Below are positions 24,802-49,113 of a DNA stretch of 64,000 nt, one piece after another. A model generated the notes under the pieces. That model worked only from the letters and a program-made list of their open reading frames with translations, had not been told where the DNA came from and searched no databases. The stretch comes from Bacteroidota bacterium (lineage in GTDB: Bacteria; Bacteroidota; Ignavibacteria; Ignavibacteriales; Ignavibacteriaceae): contig JAKAKL010000004.1 of NCBI GenBank assembly GCA_021824565.1, positions 1 to 64,000 on the forward strand, in the 5' to 3' direction. The translations under genes and the position numbers were made by a program. The number at the start of each line of letters is the position of its first letter. Within the stretch, counting starts at the first letter, position 1.

Positions 24802-25245
24802 GTGAATTATAAATGGATCATTTCACTGTGCGGATTATTAGCATGCGAAACAAATTGCCAGGTAATGCACGCTGCCGATACAACTAATATCGGACAAGTG
24901 AAGTTTATTGATAACAACGTTATTAGTGCAAATGAGAGTGAAAAATTTAATATCCCGACTGGAGGTATAGTTGATGGAAAGGGGAGCCTAATTCTTGATA
25001 ATATATTTTATTCGTCGCCGGAGTTTTTGTATAGAGAAGATGATAAAGTATTGTTGTCTTCGCTGGCGTTTTCTCAAACGGAAAATAACCTTTTTGAAAA
25101 TACAAAGGCGATTCAAAATAATTTTCACAATATCTATTTATGGTCAAAGCCTACCGCATTGCAAAAAATATTTTACAATGTAAATATGTCGGGCGCCTTT
25201 CTGCTGGCTGGCTACCATATTTGGAAATATTATATAAAGAAGTAA
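24802..25245 (+). CDS. Secreted or membrane-anchored protein of unknown function
   Basis: Unrecognised 147-aa protein starting at GTG; the nearby ATG at 24795 hits a stop after five codons, and GAGGAA upstream serves as ribosome binding site. The N-terminus (MNYKWIISLCGLLACETNCQ) is signal-peptide-like with a possible lipobox LLAC. A weakly hydrophobic segment near the C-terminus (NMSGAFLLAGYHIWKYYIKK) may form an anchor. The middle is polar without recognisable domains. Together with 24470-24757 it may form a small orphan operon. Confidence 0.5.
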   Translation: MNYKWIISLCGLLACETNCQVMHAADTTNIGQVKFIDNNVISANESEKFNIPTGGIVDGKGSLILDNIFYSSPEFLYREDDKVLLSSLAFSQTENNLFENTKAIQNNFHNIYLWSKPTALQKIFYNVNMSGAFLLAGYHIWKYYIKK

Positions 25246-25299
25246 AGATATTTAATCAGCATCATTTTCATTTTAATTAAAAAAAAAGGAGTGAAAAAA

Positions 25300-26049
25300 A
25301 TGAAACGTTTATCATTCACATTGTCATGCTTATTCTTTCTCGCCATCGGGATGAATTTCTCTTCCGCGCAAACTGCGGCAGTTAAGTTTGAAGTAAAGAT
25401 TCCGTCTTCGGGATTGCAGAAAGATTCTTCAGTATTTCTTGCAGGTTCTTTTAACTGCTGGAACCCGCAAGATTCAATGTATCTTATGAATAAAATTGGA
25501 GATGATATTTATTCGCTGACTGTTCCGCTTTTTGACGACAAGAAATACGAATATAAATACACGCTTGGCGGCTGGAGCACGGTTGAAACGGCGGAGAATA
25601 ATAACGATATAAATAATAGGCAGATGGTCTCGCACGATGGACTTACAATTGTTGATACCGTCGTAAACTGGAAAGCTCCGGAACCGGCAAAGCAAATAGA
25701 CTCATCATTGATGCTAAGTAAAGAACAACTGGATAAACTGTCAAATTTAAAAGATGAAATGGGCAAAAATCTTGAAAGCAGAATGAAAAATTTTACAGGC
25801 TTGCTTAAAGATGCTTTTAAGAATATGCTTTCTCAAAAGCCGGATATGAAGCTGAAGAAAAAATATCATAGAGAAATGGTAGCGCAAATTAATCATGCTT
25901 TGGATATGGCTGCCGATGCGATATGGAAAGTGTCCTCCGTTTTAACACCGGAACAGAAGAAAGCTATTTTAGAGAAGTTAAATAATTCTAACTCGGACGG
26001 AGATATTTTTAGCATAATGTCAAAAGCTTTGAGCCAGCCGAATAAATAA
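25300..26049 (+). CDS. Secreted protein with CBM20/48-like domain and helical C-terminal half
   Basis: Exported 249-aa protein. The ATG at 25300 is preferred: the GTG at 25291 is part of the AAAGGAG ribosome binding site. After a signal peptide (to about residue 24, SSAQ) comes a beta-sandwich of the starch-binding/AMPK-glycogen-binding type: VFLAGSFNCWNPQDSMYLM, then YEYKYTLGGWSTVETAENNNDINNR, which has the W-x-NP and YKY signature residues. Residues ~130-249 are a charged helical region resembling Spy/CpxP-like helices (LSKEQLDKLSNLKDEMGK; LTPEQKKAILEKL). It suggests a periplasmic glycan-sensing or chaperone role; function is unproven. Confidence 0.7.
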   Translation: MKRLSFTLSCLFFLAIGMNFSSAQTAAVKFEVKIPSSGLQKDSSVFLAGSFNCWNPQDSMYLMNKIGDDIYSLTVPLFDDKKYEYKYTLGGWSTVETAENNNDINNRQMVSHDGLTIVDTVVNWKAPEPAKQIDSSLMLSKEQLDKLSNLKDEMGKNLESRMKNFTGLLKDAFKNMLSQKPDMKLKKKYHREMVAQINHALDMAADAIWKVSSVLTPEQKKAILEKLNNSNSDGDIFSIMSKALSQPNK

Positions 26050-26310: not shown

Positions 26311-27963
26311 ATGCACAAAATCTCCAAAGGAATTTTGTTTTTATTTTTCTTTGTTGTTACACTATTTGACGGCTCTGCTGCACGGAACCATCTATATATA
26401 AGAGCATCGCAGGTTGGATTTCTGCCGGGGGACTTGAAAACCGCCGTCGTAATGTCGCAATCTTCGTTTACGGAAAAAAAATTTTCTGTTATAAACGTAA
26501 ACACAAAATCTACAGCCTACTCCGGAACATTAGAAGAACAAAATCATACTTTCGGCAATTTTAAATATTGTTATGAACTTGATTTCTCAAAACTAATTTT
26601 ACCCGGCACTTACAGGATTAATATTGACGGCGAATATTCAGAGCCTTTTAAAATTGGCCGCGAGATATTTAATAACGTTGTTGATTCGTTAATGCTTTTC
26701 TTTCAAGAACAGCGCTGCGGTCCTACTAATCCGATACTTCACAAACCGTGTCACCTGTCCGATGTAGTAAGATTAATCGGCGACAAAGATCAGTCGAGTG
26801 GTGTTGATCTTACCGGCGGCTGGCATGATGCTGGCGATTACATAAAATTTCTTTCAACCACCGCCTACACAACTTATATGTTAATCTTCTCGTATGATTT
26901 TGACAAAAACAAATTTGGATTTGATAATAATAATGACGGCGTTCCCGATGTTCTGGCAGAAGCCAAAATAGGGCTTGATTGGATGCTTAGATGCAATTAT
27001 TCTAAATATAAATTGGTAACTCAGGTTCAGGATGTTCGCGATCATGCACAGAAATGGAGAATGCCCGAAGATGATTCCCTTCGCTTTGACAGACCTGGTT
27101 ATGTTGGAATGGGAAAGAACCAGATCGGAATGTATGCCGCTGTAATGGCGCTTGCTTCGCGCATTTGGAATGAAAAATTTCATAAAGCTGATTTTGCAAA
27201 AAAATGTCTGGATGCCGCTGAAGCTTTATATTCAATTAGAAATAATGTTCCCAACGAGGACAGCAGCCAGTCGGGATTTTACCAGGACAATAATTTCTAC
27301 GGCAAGCTTGCTCTTGGCGCTATTGAATTATATTTGACTACCAGTAAGCCGATGTACTTTGAGGATGCGATCAAATATGCCGACAGCGCCGGCTCAGATT
27401 ACTGGTGGAGCTGGGACAACTTAAATTCTCTCGCTGACTACCGGCTTGCCAAAATACTTCCGCGCTTTTCAAATTATATTTTAAATAACTTGAAAAGTTT
27501 TAATGCGAGAAAAGATTCTTCCGTTTTTCACGAAGCAATGGTTTATACTTGGGGAAGTACAAATTCTTTTCTAGGTGCGGCGCTTCAAGCAATTCTTTAT
27601 AAAAAATTAACCGGCAATTCTGCTTATGATTCTTTGGAAATCTTTCAGCGTGATTATGTGCTTGGAAGAAATCCATGGGGGCTTAGTTTTATATATGGTG
27701 TAGGCTCAGTTTTTCCAAGGCATTTACATTCGCAAGTTGGATTCTTTCACGGCGGTTATTTGCCAGGCGCTTTATCTGCCGGGCCTGCCCCGGAAAGCAT
27801 TTTGAAGAATTATAATATTGAGCAGAAAGATCATCGTTACGATTATTTTAATTCGGACGAAACAAAATATTTTGATGATTACGGCAATTACATAACGAAC
27901 GAGCCGACAATTACCGGCAATGCAACTGCAATTTTCGTTTACGGATATTTTTCCGAAAGGTGA
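26311..27963 (+). CDS. Glycoside hydrolase family 9 endoglucanase
   Basis: Secreted beta-1,4-glucanase of 550 aa. A signal peptide (residues ~1-24) is followed by a CelD-type N-terminal Ig-like domain (LYIRASQVGFLPGDLKTAVV to ~residue 112) and the (alpha/alpha)6 GH9 catalytic domain. GGWHDAGDYIKF puts the catalytic aspartates at 173 and 176, and the acid glutamate is E531 in TNEPTITGNATAIF, so it should be active. HLHSQVG carries the conserved His region. It opens the exopolysaccharide-like gene cluster and may trim a glucan made there, as BcsZ (GH8) does in cellulose loci. Confidence 0.92.
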   Translation: MHKISKGILFLFFFVVTLFDGSAARNHLYIRASQVGFLPGDLKTAVVMSQSSFTEKKFSVINVNTKSTAYSGTLEEQNHTFGNFKYCYELDFSKLILPGTYRINIDGEYSEPFKIGREIFNNVVDSLMLFFQEQRCGPTNPILHKPCHLSDVVRLIGDKDQSSGVDLTGGWHDAGDYIKFLSTTAYTTYMLIFSYDFDKNKFGFDNNNDGVPDVLAEAKIGLDWMLRCNYSKYKLVTQVQDVRDHAQKWRMPEDDSLRFDRPGYVGMGKNQIGMYAAVMALASRIWNEKFHKADFAKKCLDAAEALYSIRNNVPNEDSSQSGFYQDNNFYGKLALGAIELYLTTSKPMYFEDAIKYADSAGSDYWWSWDNLNSLADYRLAKILPRFSNYILNNLKSFNARKDSSVFHEAMVYTWGSTNSFLGAALQAILYKKLTGNSAYDSLEIFQRDYVLGRNPWGLSFIYGVGSVFPRHLHSQVGFFHGGYLPGALSAGPAPESILKNYNIEQKDHRYDYFNSDETKYFDDYGNYITNEPTITGNATAIFVYGYFSER

Positions 27964-28110
27964 ACCGGTTGAAGCGCCTTTGTAGCAATATAATACAGAA
28001 ACTTGTTTTTGTCTCTGTTTAAATCAACTCAATTTACGTTTTAGATTGAAAAAGCTATTTACCAACAATAATTAACGGCATAATATTTGGAAAATTTCAA
28101 AAAAAACTAT

Positions 28111-29361
28111 ATGGTCATGAAAAAGAAAATACAACTTTTACAAACCGGTATCTCCTTGGTTGACAATGCATGGGGAGGATTTTATCGAGGAGGTACCTAC
28201 TTGCTTATCGGAGCAAGAAAGTCAGGCAGAACTCTGCTCGCGCTTCAGTACGCCCTTGAATGCGCTAGCCAGAAAGAAGTCTGCCTTTATTTTACAAGCA
28301 TGCGACCAAAAGATTTAATGATTCACGCAGCCTCAATTGATTTTGATCTGCAGCATTATATGAACCAAAATCTTATTATAGTTGTTAGAGTTGCTCCTCC
28401 TTCGGATTTATACGGCGTTGGAAATCCTGATGATTTTTTAGTTGAATATCTTAATGATATTGTTACTGTTGTTGAGCAATACCAGCCTAACAAAATTGTA
28501 TTCGATGAGCTTACACCGTTTATCGGCTTTAATAATGTTAATTTGCTTCAGGATGTTTTCGTACGCACCACAGAGGCTATTGAAGACAACGGAATAACAA
28601 GTCTGTTTGTTCTTGGCGACCCTGCCACGCCGTTAGCTAACTCTATTGTTGAAGCTCTTGCTACCTATTCGACAGGCATTATTTATCTTCAGAAAAAAGA
28701 CGGCGAATCAAATCAGCAGCTTAACGGCGTTATGACAATTACTCCCAACATCGGACATGCAGAAGGTCAGTTTAAAGCAAACTATTTTATTGAGCCTTAT
28801 AAAGGCATTACTGTTGATTATAAACCTAAAACATATTCCCGTCCGGCAGATCAGCAGCAGCTTCCCAAGAAAGATCTTAAATATAAATCTTTAGCCGATA
28901 TAGAACTACCTCAAGAGAATTACTCGATTTCAAACGTATATTCTATGGCTGATTTTAAGCTGATTCTCAATAATCAAATTGCGCTTTATCAAAGCACCGG
29001 ACAAACTTTTTCTATTCTTTCTTTCAGGCTTGATCCCGGCGCCGAAAGAGACGAACTGCTGACACTTAATCAGCTTCAAAATGCTGTAAGACTTTCCACC
29101 GATAGAAAAGACAAAATTTGTGCTCTTAATAATAAAGTTGTTGTATTGATTATTAGAGCAGAACAAAGAGGAATAAATGTTTTCTTAAGTAAAATTAAAA
29201 CAAACCTGCCGAGTGCTGAACCAAACTACTTAAGCAAGGTAATGCAGTATATATCCGTGTATGCTGTTAAAATTGATGAAAGCATTCACACTGCCGATGA
29301 TGTGTTTCAACAGATTTTAGCTGATGAAAAACCTGAGAAAAATATTCTTGGATTTAATTAA
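28111..29361 (+). CDS. KaiC/RadA-like P-loop ATPase with altered Walker A
   Basis: RecA-superfamily protein of about 416 aa. The first ~230 residues resemble KaiC-domain ATPases: LLQTGISLVDNAWGGFYRGGTYLLIG, and the Walker B strand KIVFDE with D132 and E133. The Walker A is GARKSGRT (residues 34-41), with Arg replacing the invariant Lys of GKT, so ATP binding may be altered. The C-terminal half is a separate alpha/beta domain. The TTG at 28087 is an alternative start. It is 11 nt upstream of the TPR/outer-membrane exporter, which hints at control of polysaccharide secretion. Confidence 0.75.
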   Translation: MVMKKKIQLLQTGISLVDNAWGGFYRGGTYLLIGARKSGRTLLALQYALECASQKEVCLYFTSMRPKDLMIHAASIDFDLQHYMNQNLIIVVRVAPPSDLYGVGNPDDFLVEYLNDIVTVVEQYQPNKIVFDELTPFIGFNNVNLLQDVFVRTTEAIEDNGITSLFVLGDPATPLANSIVEALATYSTGIIYLQKKDGESNQQLNGVMTITPNIGHAEGQFKANYFIEPYKGITVDYKPKTYSRPADQQQLPKKDLKYKSLADIELPQENYSISNVYSMADFKLILNNQIALYQSTGQTFSILSFRLDPGAERDELLTLNQLQNAVRLSTDRKDKICALNNKVVVLIIRAEQRGINVFLSKIKTNLPSAEPNYLSKVMQYISVYAVKIDESIHTADDVFQQILADEKPEKNILGFN

Positions 29362-29372
29362 AACAAAAATAG

Positions 29373-32240
29373 ATGAAGAAAGTACTTTATTTAATCTTAC
29401 TGCTTTTAGCCGGCGGTATTTCATTTACTGCTTATGCGCAGCCTCAGTTTATAGCAATGCGGAACGAAGCCATAAACGAAATGAAGTCCGGGCGCTACGG
29501 CGAAGCAATTGATCTTTTAAATAAATATATCTCAGCTTATCCGCAGCAGCCTGATGGATACAATCTAAGAGGAATTTGCAATGAAAAAAGGGAACAGTTC
29601 GAAAATGCAGTATATGACTACCGATCAGCATTAAAATTAGCTCCATCCAATAAAGAAATAAATCAAAATTTAGCAAGAGCAACACAGCTTTGGTACTCGC
29701 TTTTATATAATCAGATTGAAGGATATAAAAGAGAGATTGCAATCAATCCCGACAAGCCGGACAATTATCTTCAAATCGGGATAGCGTATAAAAACTTAGG
29801 TCAGTGGAACGTAGCTGAAGAATGGTATGACAGATATTTAGCCAGAGCTCATGCTTCGCCCGATGAAGTGATCAGGTACTCGGAAATTTTAGCGAAGAAT
29901 AACCATATAGCAAAAGGCTGGCCTATTCTAAAAAGATATACCGAAGAATATCCAAACGATCAAAGATTATGGTCAAGGTTCGGATATTTTTCTTTGTGGC
30001 TCGGAAAGACTAAAATTGCTATTGACGCTTTTCAAAATGCACTCGCCTTAAAACCATTTTTTAGAGAAGCACAAGATGGACTAGACGAAGCGCGTGGCAA
30101 AGGTTATATTTACACAGTTAACGACACTTCTATTAAGCATTTTAATTACGGTATGCCTCCTGTTAGACCTGCTTTTGTTTATCCAATAGACAAATATTAT
30201 AGGATACTTAAAAGAAAACCGGAGGATAATGAAACGAGACTTATTTTAGTTAAAGCCTTATTCCAGGTAAACCGTTTTGAAGAAGCTTCGCAGCAGCTTA
30301 ATATATTAAGTCGTGCGAATTATGATTCATCGGAAGTTGCGGCTTTATCCGCTCAGGTTGATTCGGCGGAGACGGTAGTTTATATGCAGAAAGTGCAGGA
30401 TTATAAAGACAAGCTTGCAAAGGATTCTACCGATAAAGAAGCTGTTATTAATCTCGGAAAATATTATAATGATCTTGGCAGCTATGACTCTGCGGAAGCG
30501 GTTTACGAAAACTACTTGAATTTATATCCGCATGATCGTGAAGTTTTGTACGGATATGCTGTTTCGCAATCATTGAATAGAGAGTTTGATAAAGCTTCTG
30601 CCAACATGGATACACTCCTTACCATTGAACCAAATAATTTAAAATACCAGCTTTTTAGAGGACAGTTAGCGGTGTGGATGGGACATGATAATGAGCTTGC
30701 AAAGAAATATCTTGGTAATGTTTTAACTGACAATCCTAACAATGTTGCCGCCTTGATAGCAATGAGTTCGTTAAGCATGCATACTAATGATTTTGTATCG
30801 GCGCAAGATTATATGGACACAATTAAAGTTCTCGATCCGACAAGCTCTGATTTAAAACAACTTGAATCAGATATGTATGTCCAAAAACTCCGCTATAAAC
30901 AGGAACAGGCGTTTGCAATCCTACTTCAGGGGGAAGCCTTATATGGTGAGGGACATTGCCATCAAGCTCTGGAAAAGTATGACGAATATCTTGCTCAAAC
31001 AGAATCCAATATTCTTATTGAAAGAGAATACGCCGATGTGAATGTTTGTGCAGGCAATTATCAAAAAGCAATTGATATATATACAAGCATTTTAAATCAG
31101 GGTTATGATCCGGCAGTTGACCTGCAAAGAGCTAAGGCTTATTATTATATGGGTGATTCTGTAAATGCTCTCGCCTCATTCCAGAAGTTAGCTAAAGATC
31201 AGCCGGATGATTTTACGACAAATCTCTATCTAGGAGATTCCTACACAAGAATGCACCAGTACAGCAAAGCAAGAGACGTATTTTATAATATGCAGGATAA
31301 AATGAAACTCGATTCGACGGAAAACGCTACTGTTGCTCAAAGAATTTCCTGGCTGCCTGTTACAGGATTTAGAGGGTTTCTCGCTTCATTTCCAACGTAT
31401 ACATTACTTACTCCTTATGGTTCATTTTATATGGACAATACCGGCGTAAAGGAAAATACTCAAGGTCTAAGATTGGATTTCGGGTTGACAGGATTTTTAT
31501 CGGTTGGCGCCGAAGCATTCCGCATGTCTCTGGCGTCGAATGCTGTTGTTCTTAATGTTAATAATTTTAAATGGAATATCGGGCTAAGACTGGCTGACCA
31601 TGTTACGTTCGGTGTAGGATTCGGCAGTTCTTATTTCGGAAATAATGTTACTGAGCCGCTTGCTAATGTTTATTTGAGAGCAGAAGTGCCAAACGTTTAC
31701 TCTTTATACGGCACCTATGACAGGCTTGACGCTTCACAGGTAATATATTCGATTCATTTAGTCAATACAAGATTGAACGCGAATCTTTTCAGACTGGGCG
31801 GGGCATATCAATTTAAAACCGGCGTAAAAATTTCTGCAGATTATACATATTTCGGCTTTTCAGATAACAACGTAGGATACAATTTATCTTTAAGAATTGG
31901 AAAATATTTTTATCCTGATTTTCTCCTGGGATATGAATATTTTACTTCCGGTTTTGCAAAAACATCGGCATTATATTATTCGCCTTCATCTTATTCTTCG
32001 CACAACATTACGGCGGATTGGGACTTGATTAAAGACTCAACTACAACTGTTACCATTGGCGGCTTAATTGGCTTTATTGCAAACAGTAATTATGTCATCC
32101 GGCAAGGATATGCTGCTGCGACTGTAAGGCTTACAGACCGTTTTACTATTCAAGGAAGAATTGTTGGAGGAGGAAGCTATTTGTATGCAGCTACTTATCA
32201 GTCATTTAGCGCTTACTTAACAGCATACTGGTCGCTATAA
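29373..32240 (+). CDS. TPR repeat protein with C-terminal outer-membrane barrel (PgaA/BcsC-like exporter)
   Basis: Large envelope protein of 955 aa. A signal peptide (residues 1-22) is followed by about a dozen tetratricopeptide repeats to ~residue 640 (for example AVYDYRSALKLAPSNKEINQNLA). A beta-rich region of ~300 residues ends in YLTAYWSL, as expected for an outer-membrane pore. This order is that of PgaA, BcsC and AlgK/E-type exopolysaccharide exporters. It lies between a KaiC-like ATPase and a processive GT2 synthase. A terminator follows, so the synthase genes are a separate transcript. Polymer identity is unknown. Confidence 0.82.
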   Translation: MKKVLYLILLLLAGGISFTAYAQPQFIAMRNEAINEMKSGRYGEAIDLLNKYISAYPQQPDGYNLRGICNEKREQFENAVYDYRSALKLAPSNKEINQNLARATQLWYSLLYNQIEGYKREIAINPDKPDNYLQIGIAYKNLGQWNVAEEWYDRYLARAHASPDEVIRYSEILAKNNHIAKGWPILKRYTEEYPNDQRLWSRFGYFSLWLGKTKIAIDAFQNALALKPFFREAQDGLDEARGKGYIYTVNDTSIKHFNYGMPPVRPAFVYPIDKYYRILKRKPEDNETRLILVKALFQVNRFEEASQQLNILSRANYDSSEVAALSAQVDSAETVVYMQKVQDYKDKLAKDSTDKEAVINLGKYYNDLGSYDSAEAVYENYLNLYPHDREVLYGYAVSQSLNREFDKASANMDTLLTIEPNNLKYQLFRGQLAVWMGHDNELAKKYLGNVLTDNPNNVAALIAMSSLSMHTNDFVSAQDYMDTIKVLDPTSSDLKQLESDMYVQKLRYKQEQAFAILLQGEALYGEGHCHQALEKYDEYLAQTESNILIEREYADVNVCAGNYQKAIDIYTSILNQGYDPAVDLQRAKAYYYMGDSVNALASFQKLAKDQPDDFTTNLYLGDSYTRMHQYSKARDVFYNMQDKMKLDSTENATVAQRISWLPVTGFRGFLASFPTYTLLTPYGSFYMDNTGVKENTQGLRLDFGLTGFLSVGAEAFRMSLASNAVVLNVNNFKWNIGLRLADHVTFGVGFGSSYFGNNVTEPLANVYLRAEVPNVYSLYGTYDRLDASQVIYSIHLVNTRLNANLFRLGGAYQFKTGVKISADYTYFGFSDNNVGYNLSLRIGKYFYPDFLLGYEYFTSGFAKTSALYYSPSSYSSHNITADWDLIKDSTTTVTIGGLIGFIANSNYVIRQGYAAATVRLTDRFTIQGRIVGGGSYLYAATYQSFSAYLTAYWSL

Positions 32241-32269
32241 AATTTAAAAAATAGTGATCACAAAATTTA

Positions 32270-32299
32270 GGGAAGTTTATTTAAGAAACTTCCCTTTTT
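32270..32299 (+). terminator. Intrinsic terminator after the TPR/outer-membrane gene
   Basis: GGGAAGTTT at 32270-32278 and AAACTTCCC at 32286-32294 form a perfect 9-bp stem with a 7-nt loop, followed immediately by five T at 32295-32299 and further T-rich sequence. It is 29 nt downstream of the stop codon and splits the exopolysaccharide cluster into two transcription units. Confidence 0.88.
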
Positions 32300-32547
32300 A
32301 TTTTTAAAATAACAAAGAACGATTGTAGCAAATAAAGTCTAATAATCTAGTTTTATCTTTGAGCTAATTTTATTAGTAAGAAGAAATAATGATAACAAAA
32401 GCTTCGCTTGAATTATTCTGATACAGTTATAAAAAAGCATCCTATTCTGTTACACTTAAGCTTTTCTTATAATAAAATTTAGAATGAGAAGGGAAGTAAT
32501 TAATGGCACCATAGTTGTTTTTATATCAAAAAAAAGTATTTAAAATT

Positions 32548-33948
32548 ATGAATGTAAATCAAGAAGTTAAGAAATTGATAATCACACTCGATAACCGGGA
32601 ACTGGATGAGAGTGGACAGACTGACGCAAAAAAGCTGCTTAGAAGAATGATTATTAGCGGAATAGCTTCATTAATATTATTGCTCATTATTATTATTACA
32701 CTTCCTGAAACTGTCCTCGGCGTTAAGTCGCTAATAGAATATACAACAATTGTAGCGCTTGTAATATTCTTGTTTGTGCTATTATTTAGATACTTTGCAA
32801 TTTTGGTTTTGGCATATTTATATATTAACGAATATACTTACTCTGCGCCGGAGAGCGGTTACCATCCATTTGTATCTATCATCGTTCCGGTTTATAATGA
32901 AGAAAAAGTTGTAGCAGATTCTGTAAAATCGCTTTTGGAATTGGACTATAATAATTATGAAATAATAGTTGTAAACGACGGCTCTGCCGATCATACTAAA
33001 GAAGTTGCTGAATCTCTGGTCGGTTATCAAAAAGGAAAATATTCCGATATAAAAGTTTCATTGATTAACAAACCCAACGGCGGAAAAGCAAGAGCTTTAA
33101 ACGCAGGGATAAGACTTTCAAAAGCTGAAATTGTTCTTTGCATGGACGGCGATTCGCAGCTGTCTCCAGATTCAGTAAAACTTGCAGTTAGACATTTTGT
33201 AAACCGTGAAATCGGCGCAGTGGCGGGAAACGTAAAAGTTCTGAATAGACGAAAGTTCTTCACCGATCTCCAGGCGCTTGAATACATCGAAGGTTTAAAC
33301 ATGGCAAGAAGCGCCCAAAGTTTTGTTAAGCTTGTAAACATCATTCCGGGGCCTATTGGATTATTCAGAAAGAAAGCCCTTGAAGAAGCAGGCTATTATT
33401 CCAGCGACACTTTTGCGGAAGATGCCGACTTAACTCTAAAAATTCTCGCCAACGGCTGGAAGATCTATTATGAGCCGAGTTCAATTTCATATACCGAAGC
33501 GCCGGCTAAGCTTCAGCAGTTATTGAAACAAAGATACAGATGGACAAGAGGAATTTTGCAGTCAATTAAAAAACATAAAAGATTGTTAGCTAACCCAAGC
33601 ATAAATTTCGGCGATACTTTTATATTATGGACAATGTTTTTTGAAGCTTTAATCTGGCCGTTTATGAATATTGCGGCAAATTTATTTTTCATTATTGCAG
33701 CGCTTGCTTTTGGTTTTTCTTCGCTTATATTTTTCTGGTGGGCTGGATTAGGTTTACTTGATTTGGTCACCGCTCTTTATTGTGTTGCAGTCGAAAAAGA
33801 AGAATTCAGACTCGTCAGCTATTCGTTGATATACAGAATGTTCTTCATCCTGATTATTGATATATGCAAAGCTATGGCTACAGTGGAAGAATTTCTCGGC
33901 ATCAGGATGACATGGGGAAAGTTAGAGCGAGTAGGAGCCAAAGCATAG
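32548..33948 (+). CDS. Processive family 2 glycosyltransferase (PgaC/IcaA-like)
   Basis: Inner-membrane polysaccharide synthase of 466 aa. Two N-terminal hydrophobic segments are followed by a GT-A catalytic domain (IIVPVYNEEKVVADSVKSLL, VNDGSADHT, CMDGDSQL with the DxD, FAEDADLTLK with the catalytic Asp) and the processivity motif QRYRW near residue 328, then two or three C-terminal membrane spans. There is no PilZ domain. This layout is that of poly-N-acetylglucosamine and related beta-glycan synthases. The ATG at 32548 is preferred to a TTG at 32515. It heads a five-gene run to 40708. Confidence 0.9.
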   Translation: MNVNQEVKKLIITLDNRELDESGQTDAKKLLRRMIISGIASLILLLIIIITLPETVLGVKSLIEYTTIVALVIFLFVLLFRYFAILVLAYLYINEYTYSAPESGYHPFVSIIVPVYNEEKVVADSVKSLLELDYNNYEIIVVNDGSADHTKEVAESLVGYQKGKYSDIKVSLINKPNGGKARALNAGIRLSKAEIVLCMDGDSQLSPDSVKLAVRHFVNREIGAVAGNVKVLNRRKFFTDLQALEYIEGLNMARSAQSFVKLVNIIPGPIGLFRKKALEEAGYYSSDTFAEDADLTLKILANGWKIYYEPSSISYTEAPAKLQQLLKQRYRWTRGILQSIKKHKRLLANPSINFGDTFILWTMFFEALIWPFMNIAANLFFIIAALAFGFSSLIFFWWAGLGLLDLVTALYCVAVEKEEFRLVSYSLIYRMFFILIIDICKAMATVEEFLGIRMTWGKLERVGAKA

Positions 33949-33976
33949 ATTTTAAATTTTTATACACGAGGTATTT

Positions 33977-34459
33977 ATGGAGCTAATTCCGATTCTATCA
34001 ACAATTATATTAGTCGCTACGATCAGCACTTTTATGCTGGCTGTGGGCGCTTACATTCTCTACAAAGTTAGAGAACGAAAAGGCTCACAGGCATCAGCAC
34101 AACAGCCTGCTGAAGTTAAAGCAGAACTAATAACTCCGGCATCAGCTCCTTCACAGCTGCCTCAACCATCTGAAAGAGGTATGCCGCAGCCAGGAAGCCA
34201 AAGACAGCCTATTTTTATTCAGCAAAGAGCCGGTCAGCCGCAGCAGAGATTTACACCGGTCGCGCAACCTTTTGCAGGTTTTACAAATCAAGCGCGTCAG
34301 TATCAAGGCACTGAATACACACAGCAGCGCGGCTATGAAAGCAGAGGCTTAACTGAAGAAGAAAAAAAGAATATTGATTCCAGATTTATGAAGTATACTT
34401 CCGAAGGTTATGTTCCTGCTAAAGAAGACAAACCCTCTGGAGCCTTGAAGTGGAGATAA
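33977..34459 (+). CDS. Single-pass membrane protein with Gln/Pro-rich linker
   Basis: Unrecognised 160-aa protein. Residues ~4-30 are one hydrophobic segment (IPILSTIILVATISTFMLAVGAYILY) followed by a basic stop (KVRERKG). The rest is a low-complexity region rich in Gln, Pro, Ala and Ser, ending in a short charged segment (LTEEEKKNIDSRFMKYTSEG). It looks like a membrane-tethered flexible adaptor, possibly an accessory subunit of the GT2 synthase encoded 28 nt upstream. The stop overlaps the next gene's GTG start by 10 nt. Confidence 0.72.
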   Translation: MELIPILSTIILVATISTFMLAVGAYILYKVRERKGSQASAQQPAEVKAELITPASAPSQLPQPSERGMPQPGSQRQPIFIQQRAGQPQQRFTPVAQPFAGFTNQARQYQGTEYTQQRGYESRGLTEEEKKNIDSRFMKYTSEGYVPAKEDKPSGALKWR

Positions 34460-36342
34460 AATCTCGAGCCAGGAACGGGATTAACCAAGGAATAATTTTC
34501 CTTAGCGGAGTGATAATATTGCTCGGCGCTGTGCTGATTTATTTATTCATTTTGCGCGGAGTATTCGGAAGCTTTAATGCAGCAGAATTACTTCCTAACC
34601 CGGGCATGATTAAAGATTTTCTTGGCGGAGGAAAGCCTGCAATTGGAATTCTATACTCAAAGTACACTGAAAACATGCTGCCTCAAGGAAGTACCTGGTT
34701 AAACGATAATATTAATACATGGAAAAAGGTTTTAAAAAGCAACGGGTATTCTTTTGACATAATTGCTGATTCAACAATCGAACTTGGGCTTGAATCTAAA
34801 TATAAAATATTAATTCTTCCCGGTTCCAGATCGTTAAGCGATAAAGAAATTGTTCAACTGAAAAAATTTATTGGGAACGGCGGAAGCGTTTTTGCTACAA
34901 GCGGAACAGCATCATATTCGGATAACGGCAAATGGAGAGGCTGGGATTTCTTTTCAGAAGTTTTTGGTTTAAAGTTCTCAAAAGAAATTTCAAATGACGA
35001 AGTAACAAAAATTCACACATTAAGAGGCGGCTTGCCGATTACTGCTAATATTCCCGCAGGGTATCCTTTAAGAGTTGCAACCTGGGACCGTCCCATGTCT
35101 GTGGAAGTTTTGGATCCCAGAACGGTTCAGGTAAGTTTCTGGTATAACTACCGGCTGCAGGACGGATTGACGAGAGAAGAAATAAAGAAAAGCGCTGGTA
35201 TAGTTTATGGAACTTACGGCTCCGGCAGATTTGTGTGGATGGGCTTTGAAATCAATTCTATTATTGGAGAGCAGGAGGACTATATTTATTTCGACCGCTT
35301 GTTTTCAAATAGCATGGATTGGCTTGCATACAAGCCTATTGCTTTTGCGAAGGACTGGCCTTCAGATTATAATGCTGCCGCAATTTTAGTCCCTGAGCTG
35401 TCATCAAACTCAAATATTGGAAGCCTTTTAGGGATATTAAATTCGGAGAAGGTAAAAGCTTCTTTCTTTGTGGATCCGTCATTGGTAAAATATAAAAGTT
35501 TAATTCAATCACTGCCCGCTTACGGCGAAGTAGGCTCGTTGGTTGACATCGGTTATCTTGCATCAGTGAACGACACAATAAATTCTTTGAACGATCTGAA
35601 TACTCAATATCAAAAATTAGTAAACGCTAAAACCACCTTAGAAGGGTTGACTAAGTCAAATGTAATAGGGTGCATGCCGCTATACGGAATATATAATCAG
35701 AATACTATCAGCGCTTTGATAAAAGCAAAATATAAATATGTTTTTTCAGATTCATTAACTGATAGATCGGTTCCAAAGACATTAATAAGAGGCGACAGCC
35801 TGATAGTAAGTATGACGAAGACAGCGCGAGATGATTACGAAGTGATAAGAGATTTTAATTTAACCGATCCTGAATTCCAATTTTATACCTACCAGGAAGA
35901 TGTTGATAGAATTCTTTTCGAAGGCGGTTTATATGTTTTGAAACTTCATCCTCAATATCAATTGCAGCCTCAGAATATAGGTGTTGTTAAAGAAATAATT
36001 GACGATCTTAAGAAGAAAAATTTTTGGATCACTACAGGCGCGCAAATTGAAAATTGGTGGGCAAAGAGAAATTATGTGGAAGTAAAAGTGTCTAAGCGCG
36101 GCGATACAAGAGTTGCTTTAACTGTTTCAAATCCGGGCAAAGACGCAATAAGCAACTTGGTAATTCAGGTAGATCTAAATGAAGATGCATCGAATATAAA
36201 TTTAAGCGCCGAAATTATCGGAACTAAATTAGCCCATCTAGAGTATGATAAGAAGAACCACATCGTTTATGTCTATATTAATGATCTGAACGGCGGTGAT
36301 TCGAGAACCTACTATCTTGATTATACAAAACCCAACGCATAA
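34450..36342 (+). CDS. Membrane-anchored protein with GATase-like and degenerate polysaccharide-deacetylase domains
   Basis: 630-aa protein with one N-terminal membrane anchor (residues ~13-38), so most of it is extracytoplasmic. Residues ~60-300 resemble a class I glutamine-amidotransferase/beta-galactosidase-trimerisation fold (YKILILPGSRSLSDKEIVQLKKFIGNGGSVF; YGSGRFVWMGFEI). Residues ~310-540 follow a NodB deacetylase (AAAILVPELS, VKASFFVDPS, GCMPLYGIYNQNTISALIKAKYKYVFSDS, YVLKLHPQYQ). The metal-binding Asp-Asp and HxxxH positions are missing, so it is probably a non-enzymatic glycan-binding relative of PgaB/IcaB. A beta domain ends the protein. Start is GTG, overlapping the previous gene. 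Confidence 0.7.
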   Translation: MEIKSRARNGINQGIIFLSGVIILLGAVLIYLFILRGVFGSFNAAELLPNPGMIKDFLGGGKPAIGILYSKYTENMLPQGSTWLNDNINTWKKVLKSNGYSFDIIADSTIELGLESKYKILILPGSRSLSDKEIVQLKKFIGNGGSVFATSGTASYSDNGKWRGWDFFSEVFGLKFSKEISNDEVTKIHTLRGGLPITANIPAGYPLRVATWDRPMSVEVLDPRTVQVSFWYNYRLQDGLTREEIKKSAGIVYGTYGSGRFVWMGFEINSIIGEQEDYIYFDRLFSNSMDWLAYKPIAFAKDWPSDYNAAAILVPELSSNSNIGSLLGILNSEKVKASFFVDPSLVKYKSLIQSLPAYGEVGSLVDIGYLASVNDTINSLNDLNTQYQKLVNAKTTLEGLTKSNVIGCMPLYGIYNQNTISALIKAKYKYVFSDSLTDRSVPKTLIRGDSLIVSMTKTARDDYEVIRDFNLTDPEFQFYTYQEDVDRILFEGGLYVLKLHPQYQLQPQNIGVVKEIIDDLKKKNFWITTGAQIENWWAKRNYVEVKVSKRGDTRVALTVSNPGKDAISNLVIQVDLNEDASNINLSAEIIGTKLAHLEYDKKNHIVYVYINDLNGGDSRTYYLDYTKPNA

Positions 36343-36380
36343 AAAATAATTGGAAACATCAAATAAAAAGACGGATATAA

Positions 36381-37391
36381 ATGAAACCCAGAATTCAATA
36401 TTATTATTACCTGATGTTTCTGATTTTATTTTATTTTTTTGGATGCACAGATTTATTTGTTAATCCCAGTTCAGCAAACAACAACACTTCTGACAGCACT
36501 ACAGCAACCAGTAAACTTAAAATAACAATTACTTCTCCGGCTACTAACGATTCCATCGGATATATCGGTACAAAAATTAATTATACTCTTGTTCAAGATC
36601 AGGGCATACAATTCCTTGCGCTTTTCGTTAACGGGCAATTATCAAACGGCTGGATTCCTCCAAACAGCGACGGCTCACAGCCTACAATATCCTTAAGCTT
36701 TGATTCAACTACAATCGGCTCGAAGGTCAGCTTCTATTTGATTTATTACGACAAAGACGGCGGCTCTTCAAACAGCGATACAATAAGCAACTTGCTAATA
36801 ACGGCAATTAGAACTCCGCCTGCTGTTCCTTATAATTTTGCTTATACTAAGCTGACAAATAATTCAATTAATCTTTCATGGAAAGATTCCAGTCTTGGCG
36901 ATGCGCCGGGATATGAAATCTGGAGAAAGGTTGGCTTCTACGGAACCTTTCAAGGTCACCTTACATCCGCTCCGAACACTTTCAATGTTAACGATAATAA
37001 TCTTTCTGATACAATAATTTATTATTACAAAATTCGCGGTATAAATAAGTACGGCGCTTCTGCTTTCAGTCCGGTGCTTTCTACTTATGGTGATGGGTCA
37101 TTGAGAAGCATTCCTCCGCCAATGAATGTTGTTGTGAAAGCTACCGGACCGACCTCAGTTCAGCTCAACTGGACTTACTCGGGTTCTGGAGTAAACTATT
37201 TTAAGATTGAACGCAGATATACTTGGTCAACCTACACTGTTGTTGCAAATGTTAATGGAAGTTTTACACAATTTGCAGACAGCGCCAGCGGGCTTATTCC
37301 GGCGACTGAATATTATTATAGAGTTAAAGCTATTTCGAGCTCCGATTCTTCATGGTCACCTGAATTTTACGTCAAGACACTTTCAAATTGA
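36381..37391 (+). CDS. Fibronectin type III lipoprotein
   Basis: Exported lipoprotein of 336 aa. The N-terminus has a hydrophobic stretch and a lipobox ending in cysteine near residue 22 (FYFFGC). A Ser/Thr/Asn-rich linker and an Ig-like domain (SKLKITITSPATNDSIGYIG) are followed by two fibronectin type III modules (PYNFAYTKLTNNSINLSWKD and PPMNVVVKATGPTSVQLNWTY). It is placed in the exopolysaccharide-like transcript and may help hold the polymer at the cell surface. That role is inferred from position; the domains themselves are clear. Confidence 0.8.
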   Translation: MKPRIQYYYYLMFLILFYFFGCTDLFVNPSSANNNTSDSTTATSKLKITITSPATNDSIGYIGTKINYTLVQDQGIQFLALFVNGQLSNGWIPPNSDGSQPTISLSFDSTTIGSKVSFYLIYYDKDGGSSNSDTISNLLITAIRTPPAVPYNFAYTKLTNNSINLSWKDSSLGDAPGYEIWRKVGFYGTFQGHLTSAPNTFNVNDNNLSDTIIYYYKIRGINKYGASAFSPVLSTYGDGSLRSIPPPMNVVVKATGPTSVQLNWTYSGSGVNYFKIERRYTWSTYTVVANVNGSFTQFADSASGLIPATEYYYRVKAISSSDSSWSPEFYVKTLSN

Positions 37392-37429
37392 AGGAACAAT
37401 AAAAGATAAAATATTTTTACGGCGGCAAA

Positions 37430-40400
37430 TTGCAAAAAGATCATAGATTAAATATTGCACTTTTTGATTCGATGAAGGAAAATTTTAAATATCCTTTTGT
37501 AGCGCTTGATCATAATGGAAAAATATTATTCCATAATGAAGAAGCAGCGTCTCTTTTACGTATTCAGAAAAAGGATGAAAACCTTTTTGATTTGCTTGCG
37601 GAATTCTCTACTAAAAAAATCAGCAGCCTTGTTGACGACGTTTATGTCTCAAATAAATCGGTTACCGAGAATATATTGTTAAGCTTTGCAAATGGAAACT
37701 CTGTCAGTTCGCAGATTACCATAAGCACATATAAAAAAGAAAACGAGCTGTTTGTTTTCTGTACTTTCAAGCCGATGGATTTAAAATTAGGCGCTGCCGG
37801 TAAAACAGAAATTAAATCAACTGTCGAAGATCTAAAAGAAGTAATACATGATGAAAATATTTTTGAAATCCTTAGCGGGTTGAAGTCTTTATATCCTTTT
37901 ACTTTTATAGGAAAAGAAAAAGTTTTAGCGGACATTAATAAGATAGACGACTTCTTTTGGATCAAGGATATTGAAGGCAATTTTGTAGTAGCGAATAAAA
38001 GCCTCGCAAAGTTTATCGGCTTAAGCAATTCACAGCTTGAAGGAAAGAGCGTAAAGAGTTTTATCCCGTCTTTCCTAAATAATTTTTTGGAGTCGGTTGA
38101 AAATTATATTAAAGAGACTTGCAACTTCGTAATTGTAGAAGGAATTTCTTTGTTTGGCGCTTCTGCCTCAAGCGGCAATGAAACTATTTTTATACCGATA
38201 ATAGACGCTGAAAATAGTGTAATAGCTTTCATAGGCATTACCCAGAAAGTTAAACAAGAACAAAATAATAGTCAGCAGGCAAGCCTTTTAGCCGCAGATT
38301 TTAATTTGCTCGAAAATTATGAGAAGCCGATTTGTTTTATAGATAGTGAAGGAATTATTAGGCATCAAAGCAAAGAATTTTGTAAATTATTTTCGTCAGA
38401 AAATAATGATTTTAGAAATTACAGGTTTGAGCAGATTCTACCGTTAGCTCTGTCTGAAAGAATTCATGAGTTTGTTAAGTCATCTTCATCGAATGAAACC
38501 ATTGACATTTCGGAAAATGTTAAATCTGTTAACGATAATTCTAAATATTTTTTGAAGCTCGGCAAAATATTTGACAATGAAAATAATCATGCCGGAATTA
38601 CTGCTTATGTTGAGACAGCTAAACTTGTTGACGAACTTGAAACAATAATAAAAACTCGAGGAAGAATGTTTGACATATTAATTCAAAACAATCCCGAACC
38701 GATATTTATTTACGATACTGAGAACCTTAGGTTCATTGAGGTGAATGAAGCCGCGCTGGCACTCTACGGCTACACAAGAAATGAATTTATGCAGATGGAT
38801 CTTACGGATTTGTATACCGCCGAGGATATTCAAACATTACTCGATACTACAAACGCCGCATCTGCAATGGGCAAGTTCAATGGTCCCTTCAAGCAAAAAA
38901 GAAAAAACGGCACGTTTGTCTATGTGGAAATAAGCAAAGTAAATTTTAAATACAACGATAAAGATGCGCACTTTAATATTATTAGAGACGTTACTGAAAA
39001 TCTTGAAGCTGAAAAGAAGAGTCAGCTTTTCAAATCAGTGTTTGATAATACCGAAGATTTATTATTTGTAACAGATGCAAACGGCTTTATCACGTTTATT
39101 AATTCCTCGGTTAAAAATAAACTTGGTTATACTATTCAGGAGTTAGACGGAACAACTTTTACTTCGCTTGCAAAAGACGACGATAGGGCTGTTGTTAATA
39201 CAAGTATTTTCCAATCCCATTTAAAAGAAACTGTTTCTATTAAAGTAGACTTGAAAAAAAATGACGGCAATTTCTTTGAAACCGAATTGACCGCGACTCC
39301 GGTGCTGGATTACAACGGCGTCGTCGATTCGTTCACGATAATTTCCAGAGCGCTTAAGAGTGACGAAGCGGAAATGGCTAAAGAAGTCTTAGTGCAAAAA
39401 TATTCCGAGCCGGTCGCGTCGAATCAAGCAGCAGGTCTTAGTCCTGCTCTGCTGCCGAATATTTTCCACGAGATTCTTACGCCGATTAACGTGATACTTG
39501 GATTTGTTCAAGAATTGAAAGAAAGCATCTCTAATCCTTCGGATGAACAGAAAGAAGCGATTGATTTTATAAATCAAAATAGAGAACGGCTTCTTGCAAC
39601 TATGAATTCAATCGTGGAGTACTCAAGTTTATCACAGCAGGCTGTTAAGCTTGATTACCAGGAAGTTCAAATAACAGAACTGATTGATTATCTGCACGAT
39701 GAGACAAAAGAAATTTCTAGTGCGAGAGGAATTGAATTCGGTTACGGAAAAATTTCTTCATCGCTAAAGTTTGAAACCGATAAACAAAAATTTCAAACTA
39801 TAATTTCGATTCTAACAAAAATTATTTTTCAGATCGCTAAATCTAAAAAGGTTTATTTCTCCGCTTTACAGTTAGAAGAAAATTCCTTCGTAATAAGTAT
39901 AAAGGATAATTATTCTTCTGCGTCGAAATATTTAGTTGAAACTTTAACATCATTATTTCTTGGAGAGGAATCTTCTCAATTCAAGGATATGGGTATTTCG
40001 AGGATATCTTTGAAACTCGCAAAGTCGCTGCTGATCTTATTAAAAGGCGAATTTAAAGTGCTTGGTAAACCTGCAGATAAGAATGACTACGGATTTATAT
40101 TCCCGGTTTCGCTTGCTCAAGTAATTGGAGTAAGCAGCGAAGAACCTATCGAGCCGCAAAGTGAAAAGGCTGAAGAAACAAAAGCTGAAGCAAAACCTGA
40201 TCTGAAAATAAAGGAATCTCTTGCTTTTGAAGAAGAAGTTTACGAAGAAGAAGAATACGAAGCCGAAAGAGTTGTTCCGTTAAGTGAAATGAAACTGCCT
40301 GAGCAGCCGAAGAAAATAGAGCATGTTGATATTTCTTCATTAAATTGTCTTTACATTGAAGACCAGGTTGACTCGCAGATACTTTTCAAAGTTCAAATGA

Positions 40401-40708
40401 AAGAGCTGAAAGAAATAAAATTTGCAGTCAGCTTTGAAGATGCGCTTCCGCTGCTTGACTCATCGCATTTTGACTTTATCGTTATGGATATTAATCTTCA
40501 GGGTGAATACAACGGTTTAGACGCTTTAAAAATAATTCATAAAATGCCTGGATATGAAAACATACCGATAATAGCTGTTACGGCTTACGTTCTCCCGGGC
40601 GATAAAGAAAAATTTATTGCAACGGGTTTCAATGATTTTATTTCAAAGCCGATCTTCAGAGAGAAGATGATTGAATCGCTGGAAAAAATATTCTTGCTTC
40701 ATGTGTAA
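37430..40708 (+). CDS. Multi-PAS hybrid sensor with degenerate ATPase domain and intact receiver
   Basis: 1092-aa cytosolic sensor with no membrane segment. About five PAS-like domains are seen (near residues 15-100, 170-280, 290-400, 420-525, 535-650). A HisKA-like helix pair follows with phosphoacceptor H680 in FHEILTP. The HATPase region lacks the N-box asparagine and the DxGxG loop (ILTKIIFQIAKS, IKDNYSS), so kinase activity is doubtful. An acidic linker leads to a receiver domain with the acidic pair (IEDQ), D1020 in VMDINLQ, T in VTAY and K in SKPI. TTG start; an ATG at 37472 is the alternative. It ends the exopolysaccharide transcript and probably controls it. Confidence 0.85.
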   Translation: MQKDHRLNIALFDSMKENFKYPFVALDHNGKILFHNEEAASLLRIQKKDENLFDLLAEFSTKKISSLVDDVYVSNKSVTENILLSFANGNSVSSQITISTYKKENELFVFCTFKPMDLKLGAAGKTEIKSTVEDLKEVIHDENIFEILSGLKSLYPFTFIGKEKVLADINKIDDFFWIKDIEGNFVVANKSLAKFIGLSNSQLEGKSVKSFIPSFLNNFLESVENYIKETCNFVIVEGISLFGASASSGNETIFIPIIDAENSVIAFIGITQKVKQEQNNSQQASLLAADFNLLENYEKPICFIDSEGIIRHQSKEFCKLFSSENNDFRNYRFEQILPLALSERIHEFVKSSSSNETIDISENVKSVNDNSKYFLKLGKIFDNENNHAGITAYVETAKLVDELETIIKTRGRMFDILIQNNPEPIFIYDTENLRFIEVNEAALALYGYTRNEFMQMDLTDLYTAEDIQTLLDTTNAASAMGKFNGPFKQKRKNGTFVYVEISKVNFKYNDKDAHFNIIRDVTENLEAEKKSQLFKSVFDNTEDLLFVTDANGFITFINSSVKNKLGYTIQELDGTTFTSLAKDDDRAVVNTSIFQSHLKETVSIKVDLKKNDGNFFETELTATPVLDYNGVVDSFTIISRALKSDEAEMAKEVLVQKYSEPVASNQAAGLSPALLPNIFHEILTPINVILGFVQELKESISNPSDEQKEAIDFINQNRERLLATMNSIVEYSSLSQQAVKLDYQEVQITELIDYLHDETKEISSARGIEFGYGKISSSLKFETDKQKFQTIISILTKIIFQIAKSKKVYFSALQLEENSFVISIKDNYSSASKYLVETLTSLFLGEESSQFKDMGISRISLKLAKSLLILLKGEFKVLGKPADKNDYGFIFPVSLAQVIGVSSEEPIEPQSEKAEETKAEAKPDLKIKESLAFEEEVYEEEEYEAERVVPLSEMKLPEQPKKIEHVDISSLNCLYIEDQVDSQILFKVQMKELKEIKFAVSFEDALPLLDSSHFDFIVMDINLQGEYNGLDALKIIHKMPGYENIPIIAVTAYVLPGDKEKFIATGFNDFISKPIFREKMIESLEKIFLLHV

Positions 40709-45061: not shown

Positions 45062-45409
45062 TCAGCCGGGAGGCCAGTTCATCGGTCTCCCGCCTAATAA
45101 ATGCATATGGAGATGATAAACTTCCTGTCCGCCGTTCTTGCCGCAGTTTATAACGAGCCTAAAGCCTTCCGAATCAACACCCATTTCCTTCGCAATAGAA
45201 TTTGCCGCGTCGAATAATTGTCCCAACAATTCGGAATGTTCTTTGCCATTGATATTTGTAATTGTAGGGATTTCAACTTTTGGAATTATTAAAACATGAA
45301 CCGGCGCTTTTGGATTAATATCTTTAAACGCAAGGACATGTTCATTTTCAAAAACTATATCGGCGGGTATTTCTTTTCTTATAATTTTAGAAAAAATTGT
45401 TTCGCTCAT
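45062..45409 (-). CDS. HIT family (HINT-like) nucleotide-binding protein
   Basis: Histidine-triad protein of 115 aa, probably a purine nucleoside phosphoramidase like HinT. It begins IFSKIIRKEIPADIVFENEHVLAFKDI, typical of the HINT branch. The catalytic triad HLHMH has H99, H101 and H103. Its ATG overlaps the stop of the NtrC-type regulator gene (ATGA), so it is translated from the same message. It ends 15 nt from the convergent TonB receptor stop, with no terminator between them. Confidence 0.95.
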   Translation of the reverse strand: MSETIFSKIIRKEIPADIVFENEHVLAFKDINPKAPVHVLIIPKVEIPTITNINGKEHSELLGQLFDAANSIAKEMGVDSEGFRLVINCGKNGGQEVYHLHMHLLGGRPMNWPPG

Positions 45410-49099: not shown

Positions 49100-49113
49100 G
49101 ATTAGTCCGGTGA

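Follow-up and report, generated by a model that had tools for sequence, protein, structure and literature searches.

The window analyzed here, a stretch of 64,000 nucleotides from an Ignavibacteriaceae genome of the Bacteroidota (assembly GCA_021824565.1, contig JAKAKL010000004.1, positions 1 to 64,000 of the forward strand), carries a locus of eight plus-strand genes that looks like an operon for synthase-dependent exopolysaccharide secretion. The genes encode, in order, a hydrolase of glycoside hydrolase family 9 (GH9), a KaiC-like protein (KAI), a porin with tetratricopeptide repeats (TPR-porin), a synthase of glycosyltransferase family 2 (GT2), a protein with one transmembrane (TM) segment (SML), a NodB-like protein (NOD), a protein with fibronectin type III stretches (FN3) and a hybrid kinase (HHK). 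Intergenic gaps do not exceed 38 bases, except between GH9 and KAI (123) and between the TPR-porin and GT2 (274). An earlier note on this DNA had placed an exopolysaccharide locus with a PgaC-like synthase and a PgaA/BcsC-like exporter at 28111-40708, and had described three of its proteins as having degenerate active sites. The genes it named are found where it put them; GH9 was left out, and SML and the GGDEF-fold half of KAI were overlooked. What is new here concerns these overlooked parts: KAI ends in a GGDEF fold that has neither the GGDEF motif nor the Arg of the inhibitory site (I-site), and KAI and SML together have a layout like that of BcsE and BcsF. The features of the locus are as follows.

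26311..27963, plus strand: GH9, an endoglucanase-type hydrolase (CelD_N and Glyco_hydro_9; Pfam, 3.3e-81)
28087..29361, plus strand: KAI, a KaiC-like NTPase domain followed by a GGDEF-fold domain (Pfam KaiC, 8e-21; structure models)
28210..28233, plus strand: KAI P-loop GARKSGRT, residues 42-49, with Arg48 at the Walker A Lys position, and K45
28297..28302, plus strand: KAI residues 71-72, the site of the KaiC Glu-Glu pair by alignment
28504..28509, plus strand: KAI Walker B residues D140-E141
28900..29358, plus strand: KAI GGDEF-fold domain, residues 272-424, the fold itself at about 285-412 (model, fold searches and column counts)
29373..32240, plus strand: TPR-porin, the C-terminal part resembling the PgaA/BcsC outer-membrane exporters (NCBIfam models)
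32515..33948, plus strand: GT2, a processive synthase (nearest NCBIfam model PgaC/IcaA; catalytic motifs intact)
33977..34459, plus strand: SML, a one-TM protein as judged by eye (alignment of relatives)
34450..36342, plus strand: NOD, with an N-terminal anchor, a GATase/GH42M-like domain and a NodB-like domain without metal ligands
36381..37391, plus strand: FN3, with two FN3 stretches and a lipoprotein-like start (Pfam fn3, 2e-13; conserved position)
37430..40708, plus strand: HHK, with PAS repeats, a DHp domain with H680, a degenerate CA domain and an intact receiver (D1020)
39788..40039, plus strand: degenerate ATPase domain of HHK, without the N-box Asn and the DxGxG glycines

The gene order GH9-KAI-TPR-GT2-SML-NOD-FN3-HHK is conserved across the order Ignavibacteriales. 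Conservation was counted in 80 loci from named genomes, the top-ranking ones among 137 confirmed relatives; their records are mostly labeled Ignavibacteria, Ignavibacteriales, Melioribacteraceae, Stygiobacter or Bacteroidetes bins, and the closest relatives of KAI are 78-80% identical to it. Adjacency was scored only among genes matching the set in the window, and several of the 80 loci end at contig ends. Counted in this manner, the TPR-porin gene follows KAI in 78 loci, with a gap of at most 32 bases, the TPR-porin and GT2 are adjacent in 61, GT2 and SML in 59, SML and NOD in 59, and FN3 follows NOD in 54. The five genes from KAI to NOD occur together in 59 of the 80 loci. Additionally, GH9 is the recognized gene preceding KAI in 69 loci, at a distance of 500 bases or less in 67 of these. 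The locus is split in two genomes (G064 and G066; loci L042 and L045), with GH9, KAI and the TPR-porin on one contig and SML on another. No paper was recognized as describing this locus in the open-licence literature, as judged from listings.

The secretion core and its putative product

Among the relatives counted, the catalytic motifs of the synthase are intact and those of the hydrolase mostly so. Uncut relatives of GT2 carry QxxRW and DxD in 58 of 58 sequences and the ED motif in 57 of 58. Of the 62 uncut GH9 open reading frames (ORFs), 58 keep DAGD and 61 show a loose Glu pattern near the C-terminus. Family assignment was less clear-cut. Among the NCBIfam models PgaC ranks first for the synthase, yet its score of 204.3 bits lies under the cut-off of 422.3 for TIGR03937 and does not make it a PgaC equivalog; PgaA is the third model for the porin, with 57.5 bits against a cut-off of 366.65 for TIGR03939. 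The synthase also falls well short of the bacterial cellulose synthase model TIGR03030 (68.6 bits against 699.1), and the TPR-porin reaches 33.3 bits with the BcsC model.

GH9 is a cellulase family, and the cellulose synthases of TIGR03030 carry a C-terminal PilZ domain. The presence of GH9 in the operon suggests a beta-1,4-glucan-like polymer, which is our best guess for the product given the families involved. The GT2 synthase would polymerize and extrude a beta-linked glycan, the TPR-porin would export it, and GH9 would trim it. A processive GT2 synthase, a TPR-porin and a glucanase are also found together in the type II Bcs system of E. coli.

The locus likewise shares a PgaC-like GT2, a PgaA-like TPR-porin and a NodB-like accessory protein with the PgaABCD/Ica system for poly-N-acetylglucosamine (PNAG), and the ranking of the PgaC and PgaA models points in the same direction. 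It could thus be proposed that this is a diverged pga system whose PgaB-type deacetylase has decayed and which exports fully acetylated poly-GlcNAc. We consider this improbable, since both scores are far under the cut-offs, a cellulase-family gene is the usual neighbor, and NOD is strongly conserved and not decaying. The NodB-like protein without metal ligands and the addition of GH9 and of the KAI/SML pair further set the locus apart from PgaABCD/Ica.

KAI, SML and cyclic di-GMP

The NTPase domain of KAI spans approximately residues 13-245. The model of the full protein (predicted local distance difference test, pLDDT, 82.0; predicted template modeling score, pTM, 0.57) superposed on KaiC with a VIA Z of 26.7 and a root-mean-square deviation (rmsd) of 2.5 over 216 residues, and KaiC-like chains were among the 50 matches listed in a fold search with the whole protein; BcsE was not among these 50 and is not thereby excluded. 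Residues were counted in an alignment of 78 sequences, made up of 77 full-length relatives and the window, with L082, L135 and L148 left out at contig ends. An uninterrupted KAI frame of 395-470 residues is present in 77 of the 80 loci, and 47 columns of the alignment are invariant.

The earlier note had singled out a KaiC-like ATPase with Arg in place of the Walker A Lys. This description applies to the window and to 67 of the 78 sequences, but the remaining 11 have Lys, a positive charge being kept at residue 48 in every case. In a tree built without column 48 there are 8 Arg/Lys changes, of which at least 7 are forced by starred branches. The Walker A change is the weak point of that claim, as it is not fixed among relatives; because Lys recurs, the change alone is a poor marker, and we rejected it as a conserved hallmark on account of these 11 sequences and of the at least 7 changes.

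The catalytic glutamates were lost uniformly. Cyanobacterial KaiC has catalytic Glu pairs at E77/E78 and E318/E319. In KAI the pair aligns to S71-M72, with Glu at neither position in any of the 78 sequences, and the combination of a Walker A Lys with a catalytic Glu pair that marks a KaiC ATPase is absent. The neighboring R73 is invariant, as are K45, D140 and E141 (78 of 78 each); E141 aligns to Ser in a designed KaiC.

The invariance of K45, D140 and E141, in a domain in which Arg mostly replaces the classical Lys and the paired glutamates are missing, raises the question of whether KAI is rewired and not dead. K45 would then serve as the phosphate-binding Lys and E141 as the base of an unusual ATPase driving the assembly of the secretion complex, and the constant positive charge at residue 48, together with a KaiC fold predicted with high confidence, would be in keeping with such a role. 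On the other hand, both KaiC glutamates are missing from all 78 sequences, and the frequent Arg/Lys exchange at residue 48 suggests a relaxed catalytic demand. Outside the 78-sequence set, moreover, Asn stands at the K45 position in 3 of 46 sequences, including NTPase-only copies with the P-loop QNSGRT. These observations leave a rewired ATPase as an unlikely, although not negligible, account of KAI.

NTPase-only copies of KAI, of 249-356 residues and in some cases with QNSGRT P-loops, lie just before the full-length gene in 6 of the 80 loci (L079, L086, L087, L089, L101 and L105). A plasmid search with KAI gave 10 records with weak, partial hits; of the 5 listed, one is annotated as KaiC.

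The C-terminal domain, modeled alone (153 residues; pLDDT 80.3, pTM 0.72), is predicted to adopt a GGDEF fold. The 50 Foldseek matches listed were all identified as GGDEF-containing chains, in part from their titles (best E 9.1e-6), and the model superposed on a Thermotoga GGDEF domain with a VIA Z of 12.8 (rmsd 3.6 over 133 residues) and on PelD with a VIA Z of 11.9 (rmsd 2.9 over 122 residues). With the motif positions placed by hand alignment of the known GGDEF pattern, the GGDEF hairpin reads NNKVV (348-352) and the RxxD of the I-site reads DRKD (339-342). Residue 339, at which the I-site Arg would be expected, is never Arg in the 78 sequences (Asp in 46, Ser in 17, Asn, Thr and Glu in 4 each, and His, Ala and Gln once each), and D342 is kept in 77. 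The Pfam family GGDEF was not among the 25 families listed, out of 48, for the 78 KAI members. In a sample of 395 genomes of the phylum, a search with this domain hit 38 genomes of the order, though not G013 and G086 at least; the other hits were two weak ones, each spanning about 55 residues. Profile comparison of the domain with the order's own GAF-GGDEF-like protein found no relation.

The machinery for cyclic di-GMP (c-di-GMP) was searched for in 97 genomes of the order, the window's own included. PilZ was found in none of the 97, and EAL in one (G022, with 8% contamination). GGDEF gave 96 matches in 94 genomes, of which 94 matches are to one protein, present once in nearly every genome and about 620 residues long when complete, with no GGDEF motif in any of the 93 copies that cover the site (the fragment in G011 falls short of it); the two remaining matches lie in G010 and G022. 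The organism itself differs from the E. coli Bcs system in the same manner, with no PilZ or EAL domain found and a single GGDEF-type protein without the motif. Based on this domain content the order appears not to make c-di-GMP; HD-GYP was not searched for. The GGDEF-type protein of the window's genome (L151:121-1980, contig C83), its only one, has SEKVF-like residues at the GGDEF site, and its relatives, among L156-L183 and L206-L270, represent a second conserved degenerate GGDEF.

These results bear on the possibility that KAI senses c-di-GMP or another cyclic dinucleotide and gates the synthase, in the manner of BcsE, PelD or YdaK. PelD, a GAF-GGDEF membrane protein, uses an RxxD I-site to bind c-di-GMP. 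Like PelD and YdaK of Bacillus, KAI is encoded in a polysaccharide operon and has a GGDEF fold that is degenerate. The GGDEF fold, the presence of PelD among the structural matches and the retention of D342 would all agree with a sensor, as would the GGDEF or GGDEF-EAL protein of two relatives (G010 and G022). KAI is nevertheless KaiC-linked, which PelD is not, and lacks the I-site Arg; this loss, the absence of PilZ and near-absence of EAL in the 97 genomes, and the motif-less state of the common GGDEF-type protein make dinucleotide sensing by KAI very improbable.

SML consists of a conserved membrane segment (MELIPILS.IILVATISTF), a variable linker and a conserved C-terminal tail (KFMKYTSEGYV...LKWR). 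MELIP and the terminal W[RKQ] are present in 61 of 61 sequences and the tail motif in 60 of 61; SML matched no family in Pfam or NCBIfam. Because basic residues follow the membrane segment, the positive-inside rule would place the C-terminus in the cytosol. KAI and SML tend to occur together: both are present in 83 of the 97 genomes, neither in 5 and only one in 9, and among the 68 better genomes (completeness of at least 95%, contamination of at most 5%) the corresponding numbers are 62, 4 and 2, with KAI scored as missing when the search gave nothing or only distant KaiC matches. The Fisher p values of 4e-4 (97 genomes) and 3e-5 (68 genomes) are nominal, since the genomes are related. In G064 and G066, where the locus is split, KAI and SML are both retained on separate long contigs.

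BcsE is described as combining a RecA/KaiC-like domain that lacks catalytic competence with a receiver and a GGDEF domain that are both degenerate, and as being recruited by the one-TM peptide BcsF through a cytosolic tail that adds a strand to a BcsE sheet (PMC7439463, PMC11470070); its Walker A motif is severely diverged (PMC7439463). KAI has the same general layout as E. coli BcsE, a RecA/KaiC-like NTPase domain that is catalytically dead as judged by motif, joined to a degenerate GGDEF fold, and SML would correspond to BcsF as a one-TM partner with a predicted cytosolic tail, a likeness of layout. The contention of the earlier note that regulation here is unlike the pga or bcs systems therefore does not hold, as part of the locus resembles E. 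coli bcs minus c-di-GMP. In view of this layout and of the co-occurrence of the two genes, SML is proposed to hold KAI at the synthase. KAI would most likely act as a cytosolic scaffold that the C-terminal tail of SML recruits to the synthase, much as BcsF recruits BcsE, without c-di-GMP. The pair also differs from its counterparts, in that KAI has no Arg to complete the RxxD I-site found in BcsE, and SML, unlike BcsF, has a long variable linker.

NodB-like protein and hybrid kinase

Matches of the NodB domain of NOD are weak and below curated cut-offs (PdaB, 8e-4; Polysacc_deac_1, 0.011), with deacetylases in the PDB matching at E values from 8e-4. Comparison by hhalign with one intact NodB protein of the same genome gave an E of 2.2e-5 and a probability of 76%; against the NodB assignment, the same comparison with a second intact NodB protein of that genome found nothing (E 0.098). 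Residues were counted in 59 sequences, 58 relatives with a NOD of 600-680 residues and the window, divergent second copies being excluded.

The earlier note had described a NodB-type domain without its metal ligands, and this was confirmed. HxxxH occurs in none of the 59 sequences, and none has Asp at positions 315-316, where the Asp pair of TFDD was placed by hand (the hhalign match starts downstream of this site). The Asp-His-His triad of NodB/CE4 deacetylases, carried by TFDD and HxxxH, is consequently missing from NOD. Nonetheless, 65 columns are invariant, among them H500 (59 of 59), D366, D434, S435, R439 and R460-D461-D462. The N-terminal anchor, in which positive residues precede the membrane segment as judged by eye, predicts a periplasmic location. 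Because the metal ligands are absent, NOD would most likely be, instead of a deacetylase, a periplasmic subunit without catalytic activity that binds the glycan or serves in assembly. In 7 of the 80 loci (L081, L083, L085, L089, L096, L109 and L144), NOD is followed by another NOD-like gene that has diverged strongly (21-25% identity).

HHK was compared in 26 sequences, comprising 25 relatives of at least 850 residues from 40 whole-genome loci and the window. Along its whole DHp-CA region, the profile resembles those of histidine kinases (best match in the PDB, 5.8e-25). Asn is found in none of the 26 at the N-box column (798), and no DxGxG is present in the ATPase region of any of them; D826, the first Asp of the DxGxG box, is invariant (26 of 26). 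The earlier description of a hybrid sensor lacking the N box and DxGxG was accurate for the former, and for the latter only as regards the glycines. The window's genome has 80 HATPase_c matches at E values of 0.001 or less, and HHK is not one of them; this family weakly matches 15 of the 26 members at E values up to 1 (best 2.9e-5), with no match for HHK of the window. All 26 sequences retain the phospho-acceptor H680, and the 21 that cover the receiver site all retain its Asp.

Without the N box and DxGxG that characterize an autokinase, HHK is implausible as a kinase that uses ATP to phosphorylate its own His. A retained DHp His next to a degenerate ATPase domain is the combination seen in ChpT, Spo0B and PhyT. 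ChpT is reported not to autophosphorylate and to have had no ATP or ADP bound in crystals (PMC3433190), and PhyT to supply PhyR with phosphate taken from a single-domain regulator (PMC5898713). Similarly, HHK probably passes phosphoryl groups between response regulators or removes them, although it differs from these three proteins in that PAS sensors and an intact receiver are part of the same chain. A single-domain response regulator is encoded upstream of GH9 or KAI in 8 of the 80 loci (L075, L077, L079, L081, L089, L096, L108 and L110), and such upstream receivers would fit a phosphorelay through HHK. In the window, no single-domain response regulator was found in the scanned ORFs upstream of GH9 (ORF 24802-25245 was not scanned).

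The alignments of KAI, NOD and HHK also address whether the degenerate motifs reflect the ordinary decay of unused genes, as the earlier note would have concluded had relatives with intact motifs been found. Such relatives exist only for the Walker A Lys, a change that varies between relatives and is the one point in favor of decay; for the other losses there are none among the sequences counted. As the same losses recur in all sequences counted, with the invariant columns of KAI and NOD and the uninterrupted KAI frames given above, decay of unused genes is scarcely credible. Relatives throughout the order share the degenerate sites, which rules out sporadic decay.

Proposed regulation by a pseudoenzyme layer

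Altogether, these observations suggest that a regulatory layer of pseudoenzymes surrounds an intact secretion core. We give about an even chance to the reading that the locus combines a synthase-dependent exporter with a c-di-GMP-free recruitment module resembling BcsE/BcsF and a pseudokinase of the phosphotransfer type. An effect of KAI and SML on the activity of the synthase would follow from their position in this scheme.

Several observations weigh against this reading. With regard to KAI, no receiver-like domain was found, as residues from about 245 to 285 form only a low-confidence linker, and the Walker A motif, nearly intact except for position 48, shows much less erosion than is reported for BcsE. 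The invariant K45 and D140-E141 could be a relocated active site. Comparison by hhalign with a single BcsE sequence gave E values of 0.32 for KAI and 0.55 for its C-terminal domain; as KAI has no detectable homology to BcsE, the likeness concerns the mode of working and not family membership. SML, with 160 residues, is considerably longer than BcsF (63 residues), and the nine genomes with only one of KAI and SML depart from the pairing. Additionally, a GGDEF motif does occur in one protein of G010, and G022 has a GGDEF-EAL match, in which the pattern found no GGDEF letters. Finally, GH9 could instead serve the degradation of cellulose.

A more far-reaching proposal is that the locus represents a second, independently assembled module of the BcsE/BcsF type, free of c-di-GMP, in which K45/E141 form the relocated active site, the GGDEF-derived domain reads another signal or the synthase, and a hybrid pseudokinase relay, instead of a second messenger, sets the polysaccharide output. 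We regard this as a tentative idea, and an unlikely one in its entirety.

The control of synthase-dependent polysaccharides has mostly been told as control by c-di-GMP, and this order seems to be without c-di-GMP machinery. If the recruitment module operates as proposed, the locus would separate the structural role of a dead NTPase-GGDEF scaffold from the role of c-di-GMP, and it makes testable whether the scaffold alone recruits and activates a synthase. The operon also shows that three pseudoenzymes have been kept together across the order.

Two other regions of the window were noted. The protein encoded at 25291-26049 starts with a weakly glycogen-binding-like (CBM/X25) part and ends in helices of the LTXXQ-like type, with no relative in the fetched loci. 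At 45406-50277, a minus-strand NtrC-type regulator lies by carboxyl transferase and acyl-CoA dehydrogenase genes and is apparently unrelated to the locus.

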